Assembly: GCA_020059465.1 (NCBI GenBank)
Contig: JAGVBZ010000035.1
Location: forward strand, 62,001-126,000
Direction: 5' to 3'
Length of the DNA stretch: 64,000 nt
Source of the DNA: Brevinematales bacterium
Lineage (GTDB): Bacteria > Spirochaetota > Brevinematia > Brevinematales > GWF1-51-8
The notes beneath the pieces are model-generated. The model did no database searches. It worked only from the letters and a program-made list of their open reading frames with translations, and was not told the origin of the DNA. Made by a program: the position numbers and the translations under genes. The number at the start of each line of letters is the position of its first letter. The first letter of the stretch is position 1. Shown one piece after another: positions 22,447-32,586 of this stretch.

Positions 22447-25400
22447 TTATCTGTAAAAGGTCTCCTCACGCTTTGGCTCTCTCCGGCAGATATCGCGGTA
22501 TTTGCATAACCCGCACTTATCCTTCGCTTCGTATTCAGTCAATTCAGTCCCGGATTTGGGACTATAGAATCCGGGAATTTCCTGATCGGAATTAAAATCG
22601 CCGAGAACTGTGAACGGGGATAGATTTCCATCTTCAAGAAGAGATATCAGTAGTGCAATCTCTCGTTGTTTCTTCTCCCATACGGAGCTAAACGCCTCGG
22701 AATCCTTAGACAAGGGGAATATCTGCCCGTCCTTCCTCTCGCCGAAGCACAATATCGAGATATAATTCAGTTCGTCGACAGCATTCTCCTTCATGATAAA
22801 TTTCATAAACGAAGCGGCGTAGAGATAAAGCTGAAACAACCGCAACGGAATCTGCGCGTAATTTTTAGAATACTTCGAGACATCACCGCTCTTGTAATCG
22901 ATGATCCGGTATTTTCCCGCCCCGTCCGGTTTATCGATACGGTCGATAACACCGTGAATCTGCACTTTTTTACCGTGGATTTCCATCTCGAAGTTCTCGA
23001 TGCGGAATTCCAGCTTATCCGGCAGATAATTTTCCCGCAGATCCTTTTCGAATAGGACAAAGTCATGCAGCGATTTCCGGTAGAACTCCACCTCGTAATC
23101 GAATACCATGCCGCCCGTACGTCCGCTCTTACTGTTCCGTAACGCCAGCCCGATCGAGAGATCGAGCATTTTATAATTCGGGAGTTCTGCCGGTTTGTCC
23201 CTGAGTGTTGAATTCACATAATGATTCAGTACGTCATGCAGGAAAAGCCCCTTATATTCATCGCGGATTATATTTTCGGGATAAGCTTCAGGCTTCAGTT
23301 CCAAAATATACCTGAGAAAAAAGGCGTACCGGCAGTTTCCCATCGTTTCGAGCATAGTCGCGCTGTACCCATGATTTCGCTGAAACGATGTAACCGCATC
23401 ATCGAGCGCGTTTTTTTCGTTAAGCGTTCCCATCGTCCGTTTGTCCGAAAAAGTAACGCCGTCAGTAAAGGACTCATTTTCATTGCGGATTTGCAAAGAG
23501 TATTCAGCCATTTTACCTGCGTAACGAAGGAAGGGAAGAGTGTCCTGCAGTTTACTTATGAGATTGGAATTGAGAAACTGATGATGAGTCGAGATGAAAA
23601 ACCGGAGATTATAAATATCGATCCATTTGCCCGAAGGGACGATATCGAACAATTTCGGCGAAAATTCCTTGCCGGATTCCTTGGGCGGGATGCTGATGAT
23701 CGATTCCTTCGGGAGGTTCCGGTAAATAGTATTGAGGAAGATCGAGGGGAGATTATAATCCCCCTTCTCGGTAAAAGAATTCCGGCAGAGATAAAGGTTA
23801 TGACTAGGCCGGGAGACCGCGATATAAAAATCGAAGCGTTCCAGATCGGTGCGTTTTTCATCGGTAGGGAGTATCATATTCCGGAAGCGTTCATTCAATC
23901 GTTTCCGTTCGTTCTGGTTCAAAATGGACAGCGATCCCATGCCGGGTAACTCGCCGTCGTTCAGTCCGGTGATAAAAAGGGTGCGGAAACCGGTCTCGCG
24001 GAGGTCGTAGGGTGTCAGTATTTTAACACAGTTCTCGGGAAATATTTCATACCTGTAACGGGTATCCCTGACGATTTCGGTAAAAAGTTTATATAGTTCG
24101 TCGAAACTGAATTTTTCAGTATCCAGTACGCGGAGGGCTGTTTTCAGCGAGACCAGCAGTTTCTTCAGCTTCTGGAACGCTGTGTAATCCTTAGTGACTA
24201 TCCAGTATTCCGGGGAATTTTTCAGGCCGTGATCGTCGATCGCCCTATCCATCCCTGATGCGGCAATCAGATTAAATAACCAAGTGCTGAAATCCCCGAA
24301 AGCAACATTTTCATCGGGACGGAAACGGAATATGAGGTCGATGAAAGGTAAGAACTTTCCGCGAAATTCCGTCAGCCTCCGGAGCTTTTCGGCGAGATTT
24401 ACTCCGGATAGGTCGTCTTCGTCGCCTGCGTAACGATTTTTCTTATCCAGCTCGCCCCGGTAAAACGCTATCTTGTTATCGATATAGGATACCCATTCCT
24501 CTTTCCTGCCCTGATAGTACTCGTTATAAAGAAATTCCGACCCGCTGAGGGATTTCCAATCATTATTCTGAGTATACCCCGAATTGGCGACCGATAGAAA
24601 ATCGATGCTGTCCATTCCTTTTACCGCACACCGGAAGAGGTGCAGGATATATCCGATCGCGGGATTGGTACGGAGGGGTTTGTCTTTTGTATAATAGAAA
24701 GGGATACCGAAGTTTGTGAAAATCCCATCGATGAGGTGGTCGTATTCTTCGGGGTTGCGGACAACGACTGCAAAGTCGTTGTATTCAACCTGTTCGATCG
24801 CTTTCAGACGGGATATCTCGCAGGCGATCAGTTCGATTTCACGGTATTTCCCATATCCGTCGATCTCATATATTTTTTGTCCGTGTTCCGCATCGATGCT
24901 CACTTTTTCTTTGGAGAATTTTAGAAAACGCTCAGCGAGTTCGGTAAAAGGCCGTGCAGCCCCGTCTAACGATAAATACTCGACATCGAATTCCTTCTTG
25001 AACGTTTCCAGCGTATCGCCGATGATAGGATAATCGGTTTGGGGCAGGGCAAGCAAGACGGGTTTTGCATTGTTTTCGTAGGTGCGAATCAGACTACTGA
25101 TAAACCCGAACTGGACGGCCGTAAAATCGAAAAATCCGTCGATATAAAGAGCGTAGTAATCATCATTTGTCTCGTTCCCGATAATTTCTGAGGCAGTGCG
25201 GGTATAGAGATAATAATCGTGCAAACCCTTTTCGGAAAGCAGACGCTCGTATTCGGTGTAAATCAGCTTAATATCATGCCATTTTTCCGGGTTGCTCATT
25301 TCGCCGCGGATAACGTCCTTATTGAGAATCGCCGCCGCCCGCAGTTCGAGAATAAGGGAATGGAGCATGCGGATGATGCCGGGGGAATTTGAAATATCGT

Positions 25401-25722
25401 CGAAATACTGGAAATCGGCGGCGCGTTTTTCGGCGATCAGCCGGATAATGAGGAATGTTTCAAAATCGCTGAGCGGGTTCATGGGATGCGTCTTCCGGTA
25501 AGACGAGTTTTCGACTGTCGCCCGGATAAATTCGTCCAACGTATAAACCGGGCGGCCGGTAAACCCGCCTGTCTGCGCGGAAAGTTTCCTGATGAACAGT
25601 TCTTTCTGGAACCTTCCGGGCACGATAATCAAAGGCTCTTTATTTGATTTCAGGATGTGTGCGGCCTCGCCGATGATATGGGCGGTCTTTCCGCTCTTCG
25701 GTTTACCCAACAGAATCTTCAT
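22447..25722 (-). CDS. AddB/RexB-like ATP-dependent nuclease subunit with predicted Fe-S cluster
   Basis: A 1091-residue protein with a Walker A motif at the very start (GKPKSGKT, residues 6-13), a helicase-like body, and a C-terminal PD-(D/E)XK nuclease domain with the core GVIDRID and IIDYKSGD near residues 930-945. Four cysteines at 797, 1070, 1073 and 1079 (NCRYAFF and CGLCKYRDIC) match the Fe-S staple of AddB. AddB with AddA resects double-strand breaks for recombination. No addA is next to it in the window; the neighbours are paaK and ABC-F. It may pair with an unlinked AddA or act as a divergent member. Confidence 0.85.
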   Translation of the reverse strand: MKILLGKPKSGKTAHIIGEAAHILKSNKEPLIIVPGRFQKELFIRKLSAQTGGFTGRPVYTLDEFIRATVENSSYRKTHPMNPLSDFETFLIIRLIAEKRAADFQYFDDISNSPGIIRMLHSLILELRAAAILNKDVIRGEMSNPEKWHDIKLIYTEYERLLSEKGLHDYYLYTRTASEIIGNETNDDYYALYIDGFFDFTAVQFGFISSLIRTYENNAKPVLLALPQTDYPIIGDTLETFKKEFDVEYLSLDGAARPFTELAERFLKFSKEKVSIDAEHGQKIYEIDGYGKYREIELIACEISRLKAIEQVEYNDFAVVVRNPEEYDHLIDGIFTNFGIPFYYTKDKPLRTNPAIGYILHLFRCAVKGMDSIDFLSVANSGYTQNNDWKSLSGSEFLYNEYYQGRKEEWVSYIDNKIAFYRGELDKKNRYAGDEDDLSGVNLAEKLRRLTEFRGKFLPFIDLIFRFRPDENVAFGDFSTWLFNLIAASGMDRAIDDHGLKNSPEYWIVTKDYTAFQKLKKLLVSLKTALRVLDTEKFSFDELYKLFTEIVRDTRYRYEIFPENCVKILTPYDLRETGFRTLFITGLNDGELPGMGSLSILNQNERKRLNERFRNMILPTDEKRTDLERFDFYIAVSRPSHNLYLCRNSFTEKGDYNLPSIFLNTIYRNLPKESIISIPPKESGKEFSPKLFDIVPSGKWIDIYNLRFFISTHHQFLNSNLISKLQDTLPFLRYAGKMAEYSLQIRNENESFTDGVTFSDKRTMGTLNEKNALDDAVTSFQRNHGYSATMLETMGNCRYAFFLRYILELKPEAYPENIIRDEYKGLFLHDVLNHYVNSTLRDKPAELPNYKMLDLSIGLALRNSKSGRTGGMVFDYEVEFYRKSLHDFVLFEKDLRENYLPDKLEFRIENFEMEIHGKKVQIHGVIDRIDKPDGAGKYRIIDYKSGDVSKYSKNYAQIPLRLFQLYLYAASFMKFIMKENAVDELNYISILCFGERKDGQIFPLSKDSEAFSSVWEKKQREIALLISLLEDGNLSPFTVLGDFNSDQEIPGFYSPKSGTELTEYEAKDKCGLCKYRDICRREPKREETFYR

Positions 25723-28087: not shown

Positions 28088-29299
28088 TTATTTCATTTTC
28101 TTCTGGTACCATCGAGAAATATTCAGCAATAATACAGGGAATACGGCCTGCGGGTTAGTATTCCCGTATCTTATTTTTTTCCATACAGTTTCAATCTCTC
28201 CGCAGATTTCCATAATTTCCGCCGAATTGCTGTTCCGTATCAGCAGCGCGGGCAAATCAGAAAACTCCTGTTCGAGATACTGTTTCAAATCTGTCTTTCT
28301 TAAAAATTGCTGACGTAATATCTGGAGATTCCGGAAATAATTGATCAATTCGTACAAAAAGTGGACCTGCATATCCGGAACAGCATCCGAGTTTAATGAA
28401 TCGATAAAACGAAACAGCTCGGAACTGTGCTGCACATGAGGAGCGATTTTTGCGAAAAACTCCCGGACATTGCTCTGACGTTTCGCACGGTACTGATAAA
28501 CCACATCGTTCATCAGATCGATAGTAGACTGATGATTCCCGGGATTCTCCCCAAAAATAGTCTTGACCGATTGGGGCGAAAGACGATCGAATTTTATTAC
28601 TATACTTCGCGATAGAATTGTCGGAAGGATTTGCGAAAGCTCAGAGACGGTCAGTATGATAAGCGATTGAGACGGGGGTTCCTCGAATAGCTTGAGAGCG
28701 GAATTCTGTGCCTGAACCGTGGCGTTCTCAAATCCTCCGATCAGGGTTATTCTGCGGTGCCCCGACGCGCGCTGGGAATGAAAGTCTATGGTTTCACGGA
28801 TAAAATCGATGGGGATTTTTTGCTTTTTAGTCAACTCGTCCGATGCGCGTTCGATCTTTCCGGCAAATTCCTTATCTTCTGTAAGCCGTTTGTATACACT
28901 GTTATTGAGTATTTCAAATTCCAATTCCTCGCGAAGAACGGAGAACTCGATTTTTTTATCCTTGATCTTATCGGGAAGCTCGCCCAGAAAGATCGATTGG
29001 GATATCCGGCCGAGAAGGTATTTCAGATAGCGGATCAGCTGCTCGCGTAATTTTTCATTTGCAATATTCTGGATAAAATATTTCGTCTTTAACGAGAAGT
29101 TATCGTTCCGGTAAAAAAGAAAATCGGGGGAAAGAAACGGATCTTTTCTTAAAATCTCCTCGGATAAAAATAATCCGGCGGAAAACTTGCCGCAGCCGGG
29201 ATTCCCGTGAAAAATGAGGGTTCTACCCTGAAAATCGTCCTTTAAAAGTTTCTGGAGCAGAATAGCGGGATGTTTCTGGCCGATCAAACGTTTCTGCAT
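28088..29299 (-). CDS. holB: DNA polymerase III delta' subunit-like protein
   Basis: Clamp-loader AAA+ subunit. The N-terminal half has the AAA+ layout: GNPGCGKFS near residue 36 in the P-loop place, then LIGGFENATVQAQNSALKLFEEPP near 184, where sensor-1 and arginine-finger segments lie, and ILPTILSRS near 225. The P-loop threonine/serine is replaced by phenylalanine and the four-cysteine zinc module of DnaX/HolB is absent, in line with a non-hydrolysing delta' role. At 403 residues it is longer than E. coli HolB (334), with an insert near residues 70-150. It is last in pyrB-recJ-holB. Confidence 0.82.
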   Translation of the reverse strand: MQKRLIGQKHPAILLQKLLKDDFQGRTLIFHGNPGCGKFSAGLFLSEEILRKDPFLSPDFLFYRNDNFSLKTKYFIQNIANEKLREQLIRYLKYLLGRISQSIFLGELPDKIKDKKIEFSVLREELEFEILNNSVYKRLTEDKEFAGKIERASDELTKKQKIPIDFIRETIDFHSQRASGHRRITLIGGFENATVQAQNSALKLFEEPPSQSLIILTVSELSQILPTILSRSIVIKFDRLSPQSVKTIFGENPGNHQSTIDLMNDVVYQYRAKRQSNVREFFAKIAPHVQHSSELFRFIDSLNSDAVPDMQVHFLYELINYFRNLQILRQQFLRKTDLKQYLEQEFSDLPALLIRNSNSAEIMEICGEIETVWKKIRYGNTNPQAVFPVLLLNISRWYQKKMK

Positions 29300-29308
29300 A
29301 AGCAGGCC

Positions 29309-31543
29309 TTATCTTCCTTTTATATCCTTCATTACAAGCCGCGCTTCGGACATTCCGTTATACGTATTGACTTCGGGATAACCGACTATATCGTATGCGG
29401 AAAAATCCCGCAGCATTTCGGCTATTTTCTTGGATGAATTCCATGCAATCATCTTAATGCTGGTGTCGTTCTTTTTAAGAGTGACAATCGCGTGATCGTT
29501 ATCCTTTCCCATGTAAAAGACGTCCGATATCCTGACGTTTTCAAAAAGGTAATTGGGAATTTCATTCGCATTTCCGATCGGTTCAAGAATGTTCTCAAGA
29601 TAACGGATATTGTTCAGATTGATTTCGGAAAAATCGGTCAAAACCCCGTCAATCAGTATTTCTTCTTTCATAACATCGTTCTGGTGCTCTTCTATGTATT
29701 CCTTTGCTTTTTTCTTGAATTCATCGAGCTTCTCACGATGAATTGTAAACCCGCCTGCATATTTATGCCCGCCGTACTGGGCGAAGTAATCTGACATATT
29801 TTCAAGCATCTTCACCACTTCGAATTCGCCGCTGACCCGCATCGATCCGGTGCATTCGCCGTTCTCGAGGGAAATAATAACAGTCGGTTTCTGGTATTCG
29901 TGGGTAATCTTATTTGCAAGCAAACCAGTGATGCCCTTGGGGATTTTATCCGATGCAAGAATAAGTATTCTATCGTTATTCAGGTTTTCCGAACGGATAG
30001 TCTGGCGGACAAAATCCTCCGATGTTTTCAGCAGGTTTTTTCGCTGAACATCCTTCTTTACAATATCCCTTGCAAGTGTTTCGCCCTCATTAACCTTTGT
30101 GCTGATAAGAAGCTCTGCACTGAGGCTACCGGTACCCATTCTTCCGGGCGAGTTCAGCAGGGGCGCGATATTCCAACCCACCTGCTTGGATGTGATATTC
30201 TCCAACGGTAATTGGGTTTCGCGGAGAAGGGAAATCAGCCCGGTGGGAGCGTGAGCGAAAAGCTTCAGCCCGTTTTTTACAATATTCCGGTTTTCCCCGT
30301 TCAGCGGCATGATGTCCGCAACTGTGCCAATTGCCGCAAGCGGCAGGTATTCGTTAATCATTTCGACAAAACGGGTGTTCCTGCCGATCAATAGACGGCG
30401 GTATACCTCAGAACAGACCATGCAGTCTGCTATACTGCGATGCATTTGCGCCGGATCGGGATAGTGCCCCAGATAATTGGCAATCGTAAGTAACTGGTGG
30501 TCCTTAGCTTTCTTCAGCATCACCTTGGACATTTTCAGCGTATCTTCCATAGGATTGTTTATTTGAGAAAGACCGGCCTTCTTCAACTGCTGTTGTAGAA
30601 ATTTCAGATCAAAATCGATCAGGTTATGTCCGATCATTTTTCTTTCCCCGGTAAATTCCATCAGCTCTTTAAGAGCGTCAACGATAGAAATTCCGTCCCG
30701 GTCGAGCATATCCTGAGTTATGCCCGTGATATTTATTATTTCCTGCGAAAGCTGTTTCTGTATTTTAATCAGTTTCTGAAAGGTTTGAATGATAACACCG
30801 TTCCTGACCTTTAATGCTCCGATTTCAATAATTTCATCGTTATGGGGATTTAGCCCTGTGGTCTCGAGATCGAGAAAAATCAATTCCTGATCGAAGTATT
30901 CCGGTATTTCTTTTTTCTCGACCATTGCCCACGCAGTTTTTAACGCCACACCCGCGCCGCTTAGCGAACGGAACGGATAGGTGTCATCGTCGACCTTAGG
31001 ATTGATGACGGCGTAAGCATCGGGCAGGGTATCCCGTGCTTCGTGGTGGTCGGTGATAATCACGGTGAGTCCCAATTTATTCGCGATCTCTACTTCATTC
31101 AGCGCAGTAATCCCGCAGTCGACCGTGATCAGAAGCTGTATGTCGTTAATCGCAGCCCATTCGACTGATTCTTTAGTCAGTCCGTAACTTTCGAACCCTT
31201 CGGGAATACGATAGATTACCTGCGCGCCGAGTTTCTCAAGGAGTTTATACATTATCGCGGTCGCGGTTACGCCGTCCACATCACGGTCGCCGAAAATCAG
31301 GATGCCCTTCTTGTTTTTAATAGTTTCCTCAATCTTGAGAATAGCCTTATGCATATCTCTGAATAGAAAAGGATTATGAAGATCCAGAAAATTCGGATTT
31401 AGGTATTCCATCGCTTCGATATAACTGGAGACGTTTCGGTTATTCAGGACAGATAAAATAAATTCCGGCAGTGAGACTTTCTGCCTGAGTTCACGGATCT
31501 GATCGCGGTTAGGGGAGAGAATCTTCCATTCGAGTTCTTTCAT
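29309..31543 (-). CDS. recJ: RecJ single-strand exonuclease with an inserted DnaQ-type exonuclease domain
   Basis: RecJ degrades single-stranded DNA 5' to 3' in repair and recombination. All DHH/DHHA1 motifs are present: GDRDVDG (residues 85-91), TVDCGI (140-145), ITDHHE (163-168), LSGAGVALK (194-202), GTVADIMPL (406-414), SPGRMG and, near 595, GGHKYAGGF. Between LSGAGVALK and GTVADI, residues about 212-388 form a complete DEDDh exonuclease domain: FLDLETTG (D225, E227), HNLIDFD (D312), and HRSIAD (H368, D373). The total length is 744 residues against about 560-580 for ordinary RecJ. The gene lies 9 bases before holB and 11 after pyrB. Confidence 0.95.
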   Translation of the reverse strand: MKELEWKILSPNRDQIRELRQKVSLPEFILSVLNNRNVSSYIEAMEYLNPNFLDLHNPFLFRDMHKAILKIEETIKNKKGILIFGDRDVDGVTATAIMYKLLEKLGAQVIYRIPEGFESYGLTKESVEWAAINDIQLLITVDCGITALNEVEIANKLGLTVIITDHHEARDTLPDAYAVINPKVDDDTYPFRSLSGAGVALKTAWAMVEKKEIPEYFDQELIFLDLETTGLNPHNDEIIEIGALKVRNGVIIQTFQKLIKIQKQLSQEIINITGITQDMLDRDGISIVDALKELMEFTGERKMIGHNLIDFDLKFLQQQLKKAGLSQINNPMEDTLKMSKVMLKKAKDHQLLTIANYLGHYPDPAQMHRSIADCMVCSEVYRRLLIGRNTRFVEMINEYLPLAAIGTVADIMPLNGENRNIVKNGLKLFAHAPTGLISLLRETQLPLENITSKQVGWNIAPLLNSPGRMGTGSLSAELLISTKVNEGETLARDIVKKDVQRKNLLKTSEDFVRQTIRSENLNNDRILILASDKIPKGITGLLANKITHEYQKPTVIISLENGECTGSMRVSGEFEVVKMLENMSDYFAQYGGHKYAGGFTIHREKLDEFKKKAKEYIEEHQNDVMKEEILIDGVLTDFSEINLNNIRYLENILEPIGNANEIPNYLFENVRISDVFYMGKDNDHAIVTLKKNDTSIKMIAWNSSKKIAEMLRDFSAYDIVGYPEVNTYNGMSEARLVMKDIKGR

Positions 31544-31554
31544 CCGGCGGTATC

Positions 31555-32472
31555 CTAATACGTCTCTAAAAGAATGGACAAAAGCGCCATTCTAATAAAA
31601 AGACCGTTATGCGCCTGACGGAAGTATGCGGCCCGGGGATCTTTATCGACTTCATACTTTATTTCATCGACCCGAGGCAGAGGATGCATGATGATCGAAC
31701 TTTTCGGAAGTATATCCATGATCTCGTTATCGATGATATAAATACCGTGAGCTTTTTCATATTCTTCGATTGAAGCAAACCGTTCCCGCTGAACCCGCGT
31801 CTGGTATACGACATCTACCTTTCCGGCGACCTCCCGCAGATCGGCGTTTTCCTCGTAATCGATCCCGTGTTTTTCAAGGTGTTCCTTAATATCGTCGCGC
31901 ATTTTTACATTAGGCGGCGAAACGAAATATATCTTGATATTACTGTATTTCGCCAAAAGATAAGCGAGCGACCGTACTGTACGGCCGTTAGCAAGATCGC
32001 CGACCATTGCGATTTTTATTCCGTCGATGCGGCCGATTTCTTTTTTAATCGTGAAAATATCAAGGAGAGACTGGGTGGGGTGCTGTCCGGCGCCGTCCCC
32101 GGCGTTAATAATTGGGATTTTACTGACCTCGCAAGCACGGTGGGCGGCGCCGGCCTCGTGATGTCGCAGCACAATCACATCGCCGTAACCGCTCAGTACA
32201 CGGATAGTGTCTTCAAGCGTCTCGCCTTTCGCCGCCGACGAAAAATTCTGCGCGTTCTCGGTCGACGCCACACTTCCCCCCAGACGTATCATCGCAGATT
32301 CGAACGAAAGCCGCGTACGGGTGGACGGTTCATAGAATAAGGATATCATTATTTTATTCGTTAGGGTTTTTACTTGGGTGGAGAGTTTTTCCATGATGTG
32401 CGCGACGTCAAAAAGCTCTTCAAGCGATTCTTTAGTGAATTGCTGCGATTCTATGACATGCTTGAGTTTCAT
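31555..32472 (-). CDS. pyrB: Aspartate carbamoyltransferase catalytic chain
   Basis: Second step of pyrimidine synthesis: carbamoyl phosphate plus aspartate to carbamoyl-aspartate. Motifs: YEPSTRTRLSFE (carbamoyl-phosphate site, near residue 50), HHEAGAA near 103, HPTQSLLD near 133 and MHPLPRVDEI near 265. I take ATG 32472 as the start (305 residues) because the strong ribosome site GGAGGGG lies just upstream; an in-frame ATG four codons earlier would place that site inside the coding region. No pyrI follows; the gene leads the operon with recJ and holB, an unusual pairing. Confidence 0.95.
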   Translation of the reverse strand: MKLKHVIESQQFTKESLEELFDVAHIMEKLSTQVKTLTNKIMISLFYEPSTRTRLSFESAMIRLGGSVASTENAQNFSSAAKGETLEDTIRVLSGYGDVIVLRHHEAGAAHRACEVSKIPIINAGDGAGQHPTQSLLDIFTIKKEIGRIDGIKIAMVGDLANGRTVRSLAYLLAKYSNIKIYFVSPPNVKMRDDIKEHLEKHGIDYEENADLREVAGKVDVVYQTRVQRERFASIEEYEKAHGIYIIDNEIMDILPKSSIIMHPLPRVDEIKYEVDKDPRAAYFRQAHNGLFIRMALLSILLETY

Positions 32473-32586
32473 CTTCCCCTCCATTTTGACAAGCTCAAAT
32501 ATTATAAAACAGAATCGGGTAAAAGAAAAGAAACACGGCTTTTCTTTTCATTCGATGGCAGAAAGAACGAAGTATCAGTCGAGGTA

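Follow-up and report, generated by a model that had tools for sequence, protein, structure and literature searches.

The recJ Locus and Its Inserted Domain

The window, that is, the whole stretch of 64,000 nucleotides that was analysed, carries on its reverse strand a recJ gene whose product contains a complete DEDDh exonuclease domain (Table 1). An initial annotation of the DNA had described a complete RecJ interrupted at residues 212–388, equivalent to positions 30910–30380, and both the description and the coordinates are correct.

Table 1. Features of the window discussed in the text.
Feature	Positions	Strand	Basis or remark
recJ with inserted DEDDh exonuclease	29309–31543	−	single ORF, 744 aa
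RecJ N-terminus and DHH domain, residues 1–215	30899–31543	−	Pfam DHH 81–215
DEDDh (DnaQ/PolC-type) insert, residues ~213–388	30380–30907	−	PF00929, structure matches, invariant catalytic residues, model
RecJ C-terminal part, residues 389–741	29321–30379	−	Pfam and conservation
holB-like clamp-loader subunit	28088–29299	−	PF13177, E 1.7e-19; 9 bp downstream of recJ
pyrB-like carbamoyltransferase	31555–32484	−	11 bp upstream of recJ
AddB-like helicase–nuclease	22447–25722	−	ADDB_N, UvrD_C, PDDEXK_1; few genes from recJ
Open frame of 1989 aa	48939–54908	+	no Pfam match at E 1e-5

The whole protein matches the RecJ family TIGR00644 with 479.8 bits over residues 27–741, exceeding the curated cut-off of 396.9 bits despite an insert of ~176 aa at a usually short linker; a short linker before motif IV (G-T-x-A-D) is a usual RecJ trait but not a requirement of TIGR00644. 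The Pfam domains follow in the order DHH (81–215), RNase_T/DEDDh (222–381), DHHA1 (525–619), and RecJ_OB (634–740), and the PolC polymerase and PHP domains are absent, so that besides the exonuclease the chain has RecJ domains only. The residues that identify a RecJ are conserved on both sides of the insert: D86/D88/D90, D142, and D165-H166-H167 before it, and D410 in motif IV (GTVADIMPL) and the GGH motif of DHHA1 (residues 591–593) after it. The window genome has one RecJ copy, its other two DHH matches being frames of 327 and 341 aa.

The match to PF00929 at residues 222–381 covers profile positions 1–164 of 164 with 112.8 bits (E 3.1e-32; cut-off 24 bits), far from the background-level score that the initial annotation had named as grounds for giving up the domain. 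Its five catalytic residues, D225, E227, D312, H368, and D373, are exactly those predicted. Compared alone, the exonuclease segment is closest to the PolC-type exonuclease 2p1j of Thermotoga (E 8e-27), followed by DnaQ 8h18 (E 2e-20).

The Pfam order and a comparison of linkers confirm that the domain sits within the DHH core, between motifs III and IV, and is not appended to it: the distance from Y-P-F..L-A-G-x-G-V to G-T-x-A-D is 22–35 aa in standard RecJs and ~177–200 aa in intact fused RecJs. The AlphaFold2 model of the full chain has a pLDDT of 90.5 and a pTM of 0.90; in Foldseek searches, the whole chain retrieves solved RecJs (8y30, 5f56) and the insert retrieves DnaQ structures (8h18, TM-score 0.82 by target).

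A false in-frame fusion created by a sequencing error is ruled out by the identical single frame in independent assemblies, among them a genome assembled in one contig (G007). The 744-aa RecJ with a complete inserted DEDDh domain is thus confirmed as real and is no artefact of assembly. A DEDDh domain inside RecJ is described in none of the open-licence papers searched, in line with the initial view that the architecture has no standard description, although domain databases may list it uncommented.

Gene Neighbourhood

From the proximity of holB, it had been suggested that the enzyme acts at replication forks. The vicinity itself holds, since holB stays beside or near recJ throughout the order (families f1–f4), separated from it by a single gene in f2. 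In carriers outside the order, however, no HolB match lies beside recJ within the flanking sequence examined, so that this vicinity cannot locate the enzyme at forks and fork action is not established. The pyrB-like gene is kept by recJ in f1–f3, and no match to it was found beside recJ in f4. The intervening gene of f2 (L010, 308–1471, reverse strand) encodes 387 aa and resembles by eye a response-regulator/phosphatase of the RsbU type.

Conservation of the Fused Protein

The search for homologues sharing the insertion point, proposed in the initial annotation, found them in Spirochaetota and Elusimicrobiota. The window genome itself belongs to Spirochaetota: in another member of the phylum, G057, the RecJ (L023) has an insert identical in sequence to that of a named Spirochaetia record (L048). 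Relatives were detected by an alignment-based scan of genome contigs, a single-sequence scan having given nothing. Fused recJ is present in all 13 genomes of the order with the catalytic residues and RecJ motifs conserved (43–86% identity in the 12 sampled relatives), the gene being broken by unknown bases in one draft (G001). Elsewhere in the phylum, families f17 and f26 carry a fused RecJ at 33–35% identity, and many Elusimicrobiota carry one as well.

Among 15 fused homologues from the order, f17, and f26 (33–86% identity), the five DEDDh residues are invariant and the RecJ motif residues invariant or nearly so; by chance, the five catalytic residues would all occupy invariant columns of the exonuclease domain with a probability of 3e-4. 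Within the order, the dN/dS of the insert is ~0.06–0.27 where computable, with synonymous sites near saturation, and this low ratio indicates purifying selection on the insert.

The initial annotation did not include the spread over two phyla or, as described below, the decayed relatives and the scarcity of other DnaQ-type proteins.

Age and Decay of the Insert

A RecJ-core tree, built by a quick method with the insert columns removed and 21 RecJs from other bacteria for comparison, unites every insert-bearing RecJ from Spirochaetota and Elusimicrobiota, together with the shortened relatives, in one clade (SH-aLRT 99). Within this clade, Elusimicrobiota (SH-aLRT 96) and most Spirochaetota (97) form subclades, with f17/f26 apart. 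The exonuclease-domain tree leaves the sister relation of the Spirochaetota and Elusimicrobiota inserts undecided, and the case for a single insertion therefore rests on the RecJ-core tree; constraining all intact-insert RecJs to one clade is weakly rejected (AU p 0.04). One ancient insertion with later decay fits these data best; alternatively, the insert may have been transferred between the two phyla.

The RecJs of Treponema, Borreliella, and Brachyspira-like bacteria have inserts of ~145–182 aa without the catalytic residues. Treponema-type and intact inserts resemble each other with an HHalign probability of 88% (E 2.8e-6), against at most 1% for control domains from the same proteins; for the Brachyspira type, the match is weaker (37%). 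The very short remnants of f8 and L058 could not be recognised as similar to the intact insert when profiles were compared. The Treponema-type insert has an RNase H-like fold whose best DEDDh matches in Foldseek are S. aureus DinG (probability 1.00, TM 0.59) and ERI3 (0.99, 0.56); none of its matches has E < 1e-3, and the high-probability DEDDh matches stand among other RNase H-like ones. Treponema-type RecJs thus look as if they hold a dead, eroded DEDDh copy, which offers an origin for the unannotated segment of ~150 aa in RecJ of Treponema and Borreliella. Such a segment, of ~145–155 aa and apparently a dead DnaQ-like domain, can be seen in L062, L064, L051, and other RecJs of Treponema, Spirochaetia, and Borreliella.

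Within Elusimicrobiota, the inserts form a graded series of lengths from ~180 down to 17 aa: a partial PF00929 match persists in two genomes, most others have remnants of 100–146 aa, and three have 17–18 aa. Two Elusimicrobiota proteins, L182 and L183 (genomes G302 and G369), have a partly deleted exonuclease domain with a partial PF00929 match and a separate DnaQ in the same genomes; to judge by their sequences, these inserts are caught in mid-decay. Overall, this series within one protein, from active-looking to partial to inert or excised, provides a natural record of how an inserted domain loses function.

An origin from mobile elements was rejected. Phage RecJ matches (tblastn, P0001; 12 records listed) come in two pieces covering ~76–84% of the query and lack the insert, and plasmid matches in an exonuclease-only search are, where annotated and among the 14 records listed, separate exonucleases or polymerases.

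Other DnaQ-Type Proteins in Carrier Genomes

The RecJ-borne domain is the sole PF00929 domain in 12 of the 13 genomes of the order, the exception (G003) having a further PF00929 protein; f26 genomes also keep an additional one. For comparison, PF00929 was matched in 209 of 296 Spirochaetota genomes surveyed and not in 87.

Of the Elusimicrobiota genomes, 16 have an intact insert and one of these encodes a separate PF00929 protein, whereas such a protein is found in 31 of the 36 whose insert is decayed, shortened, or absent (Fisher p = 4.8e-8). On the tree, this contrast comes down to one change of state and does not amount to 52 independent events. An independent-pairs test found one pair only, with which significance is impossible. 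Because of this single change of state, the exclusion between intact insert and separate DnaQ is suggestive and is not independent replication.

Possible Functions of the Fused Enzyme

Our moderately held preference is for a single-chain enzyme with two nucleases that serves DNA repair and supplies the DEDDh activity of the cell, the activity itself being predicted. The RecJ part (DHH, DHHA1, and OB) would degrade single-stranded DNA from the 5′ end and the DEDDh insert from the 3′ end, opposite polarities being what the two families predict. The insert would provide the DnaQ/ExoX-like activity of the cell, and the RecJ/OB scaffold would bring it to single-stranded ends. During gap and mismatch repair, one protein could then work in both directions, enlarging gaps or excising strands that contain mismatches. 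In E. coli, RecJ together with ExoI/ExoX shares this work. Substrates and pathway are inferred here from the families; on this reading, two polarities of single-strand degradation that normally reside on separate enzymes would be joined in one chain.

A replicative proofreading role, mainly in f4, is possible: the RecJ-borne domain might proofread in trans for DnaE, at least where the PHP domain of the latter is dead, although we regard this as rather unlikely. An active PHP domain has the signature HHDHEH[C/H]DH, and bacteria with an inactive PHP and no canonical DnaQ may use noncanonical proofreaders (PMC12926913). At least seven of the nine PHP residues of DnaE are changed in all four f4 genomes, which also lack a match to the PolA-type exonuclease PF01612 and have the RecJ-borne domain, with its five residues intact, as their sole PF00929 domain. 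As far as sequence can tell, it is in f4 the last recognised exonuclease among the PF00929, DnaE PHP, and PF01612 types, and the adjacency of holB points the same way. However, the main DnaE retains an intact PHP signature in f1–f3, including the window genome, in f5, f14, and f17, and in all Elusimicrobiota carriers checked (those with a readable PHP region), so the RecJ-borne domain is not needed for proofreading in f1–f3 and these Elusimicrobiota. In addition, none of the 15 fused proteins shows a clamp-binding motif next to the exonuclease domain in a regular-expression scan with a simple consensus, and the f4 genomes, which are small drafts, could have no proofreader at all. That chromosome replication in f4 is proofread by a RecJ-housed, noncanonical exonuclease seems to us slightly less probable again. 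The fused RecJ nevertheless offers a testable candidate answer to a still open question raised in PMC12926913, namely how replication is proofread in bacteria that have neither an active PHP site nor a DnaQ subunit.

Two observations on DnaE should be recorded. The f4 genomes, of 1.5–2.0 Mb, have a sole detected DnaE whose PHP site is almost wholly lost (L133, L135, L145, and L146 in G009, G006, G012, and G011). A second DnaE of ~1020–1035 aa with an altered PHP site occurs in f1 and f3 (L136, L148, L149, and L150 in G000, G003, G005, and G008) and is probably an error-prone polymerase of the DnaE2 type.

The DEDDh domain could also be a retained structural insert in which catalysis carries little weight and which is heading for the decay seen in Treponema. 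Sister lineages do retain RecJ with an eroded, non-catalytic insert, and the shrinkage in Elusimicrobiota is graded, but the invariance of the five residues in the order, f17, and f26 and the low dN/dS in the order make this distinctly improbable. Very unlikely, finally, is an action mainly on RNA, in which RecJ would carry a domain that trims ends in the manner of Orn/RNase T: RNases do occur in the DEDDh superfamily and no separate Orn-like PF00929 protein was found in the window genome, but the nearest relatives of the domain are the DNA exonucleases PolC and DnaQ, and the two other DHH-domain proteins of the genome could be of the NrnA type and do the job of Orn.

Comparison with Known Systems

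Standard bacterial RecJs (TIGR00644; 8y30, 5f54–5f56, 2zxo) share with the window RecJ all DHH/DHHA1 motifs, the OB domain, and the domain order, and differ in having a linker of 22–35 aa in place of a DEDDh domain of ~176 aa. We know of no exonuclease domain among the insertions of Cdc45. This DHH-family protein resembles the window RecJ in having large insertions around its DHH core (PMC4846377).

The PolC-type exonuclease (2p1j) and DnaQ are closest to the insert in sequence and fold and have all five DEDDh residues in common with it, but the host in the window is a RecJ instead of a polymerase, and the consensus scan reveals no clamp-binding motif in it. PolC resembles the window RecJ in that its exonuclease, too, interrupts a domain of another nuclease type (PHP).

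The DinG proteins of S. aureus and B. subtilis also join a DEDDh exonuclease to another DNA-processing enzyme; there, the domain forms an N-terminal addition to a helicase, whereas in the window RecJ it is inserted in the core of a nuclease (PMC12345164, PMC12525004).
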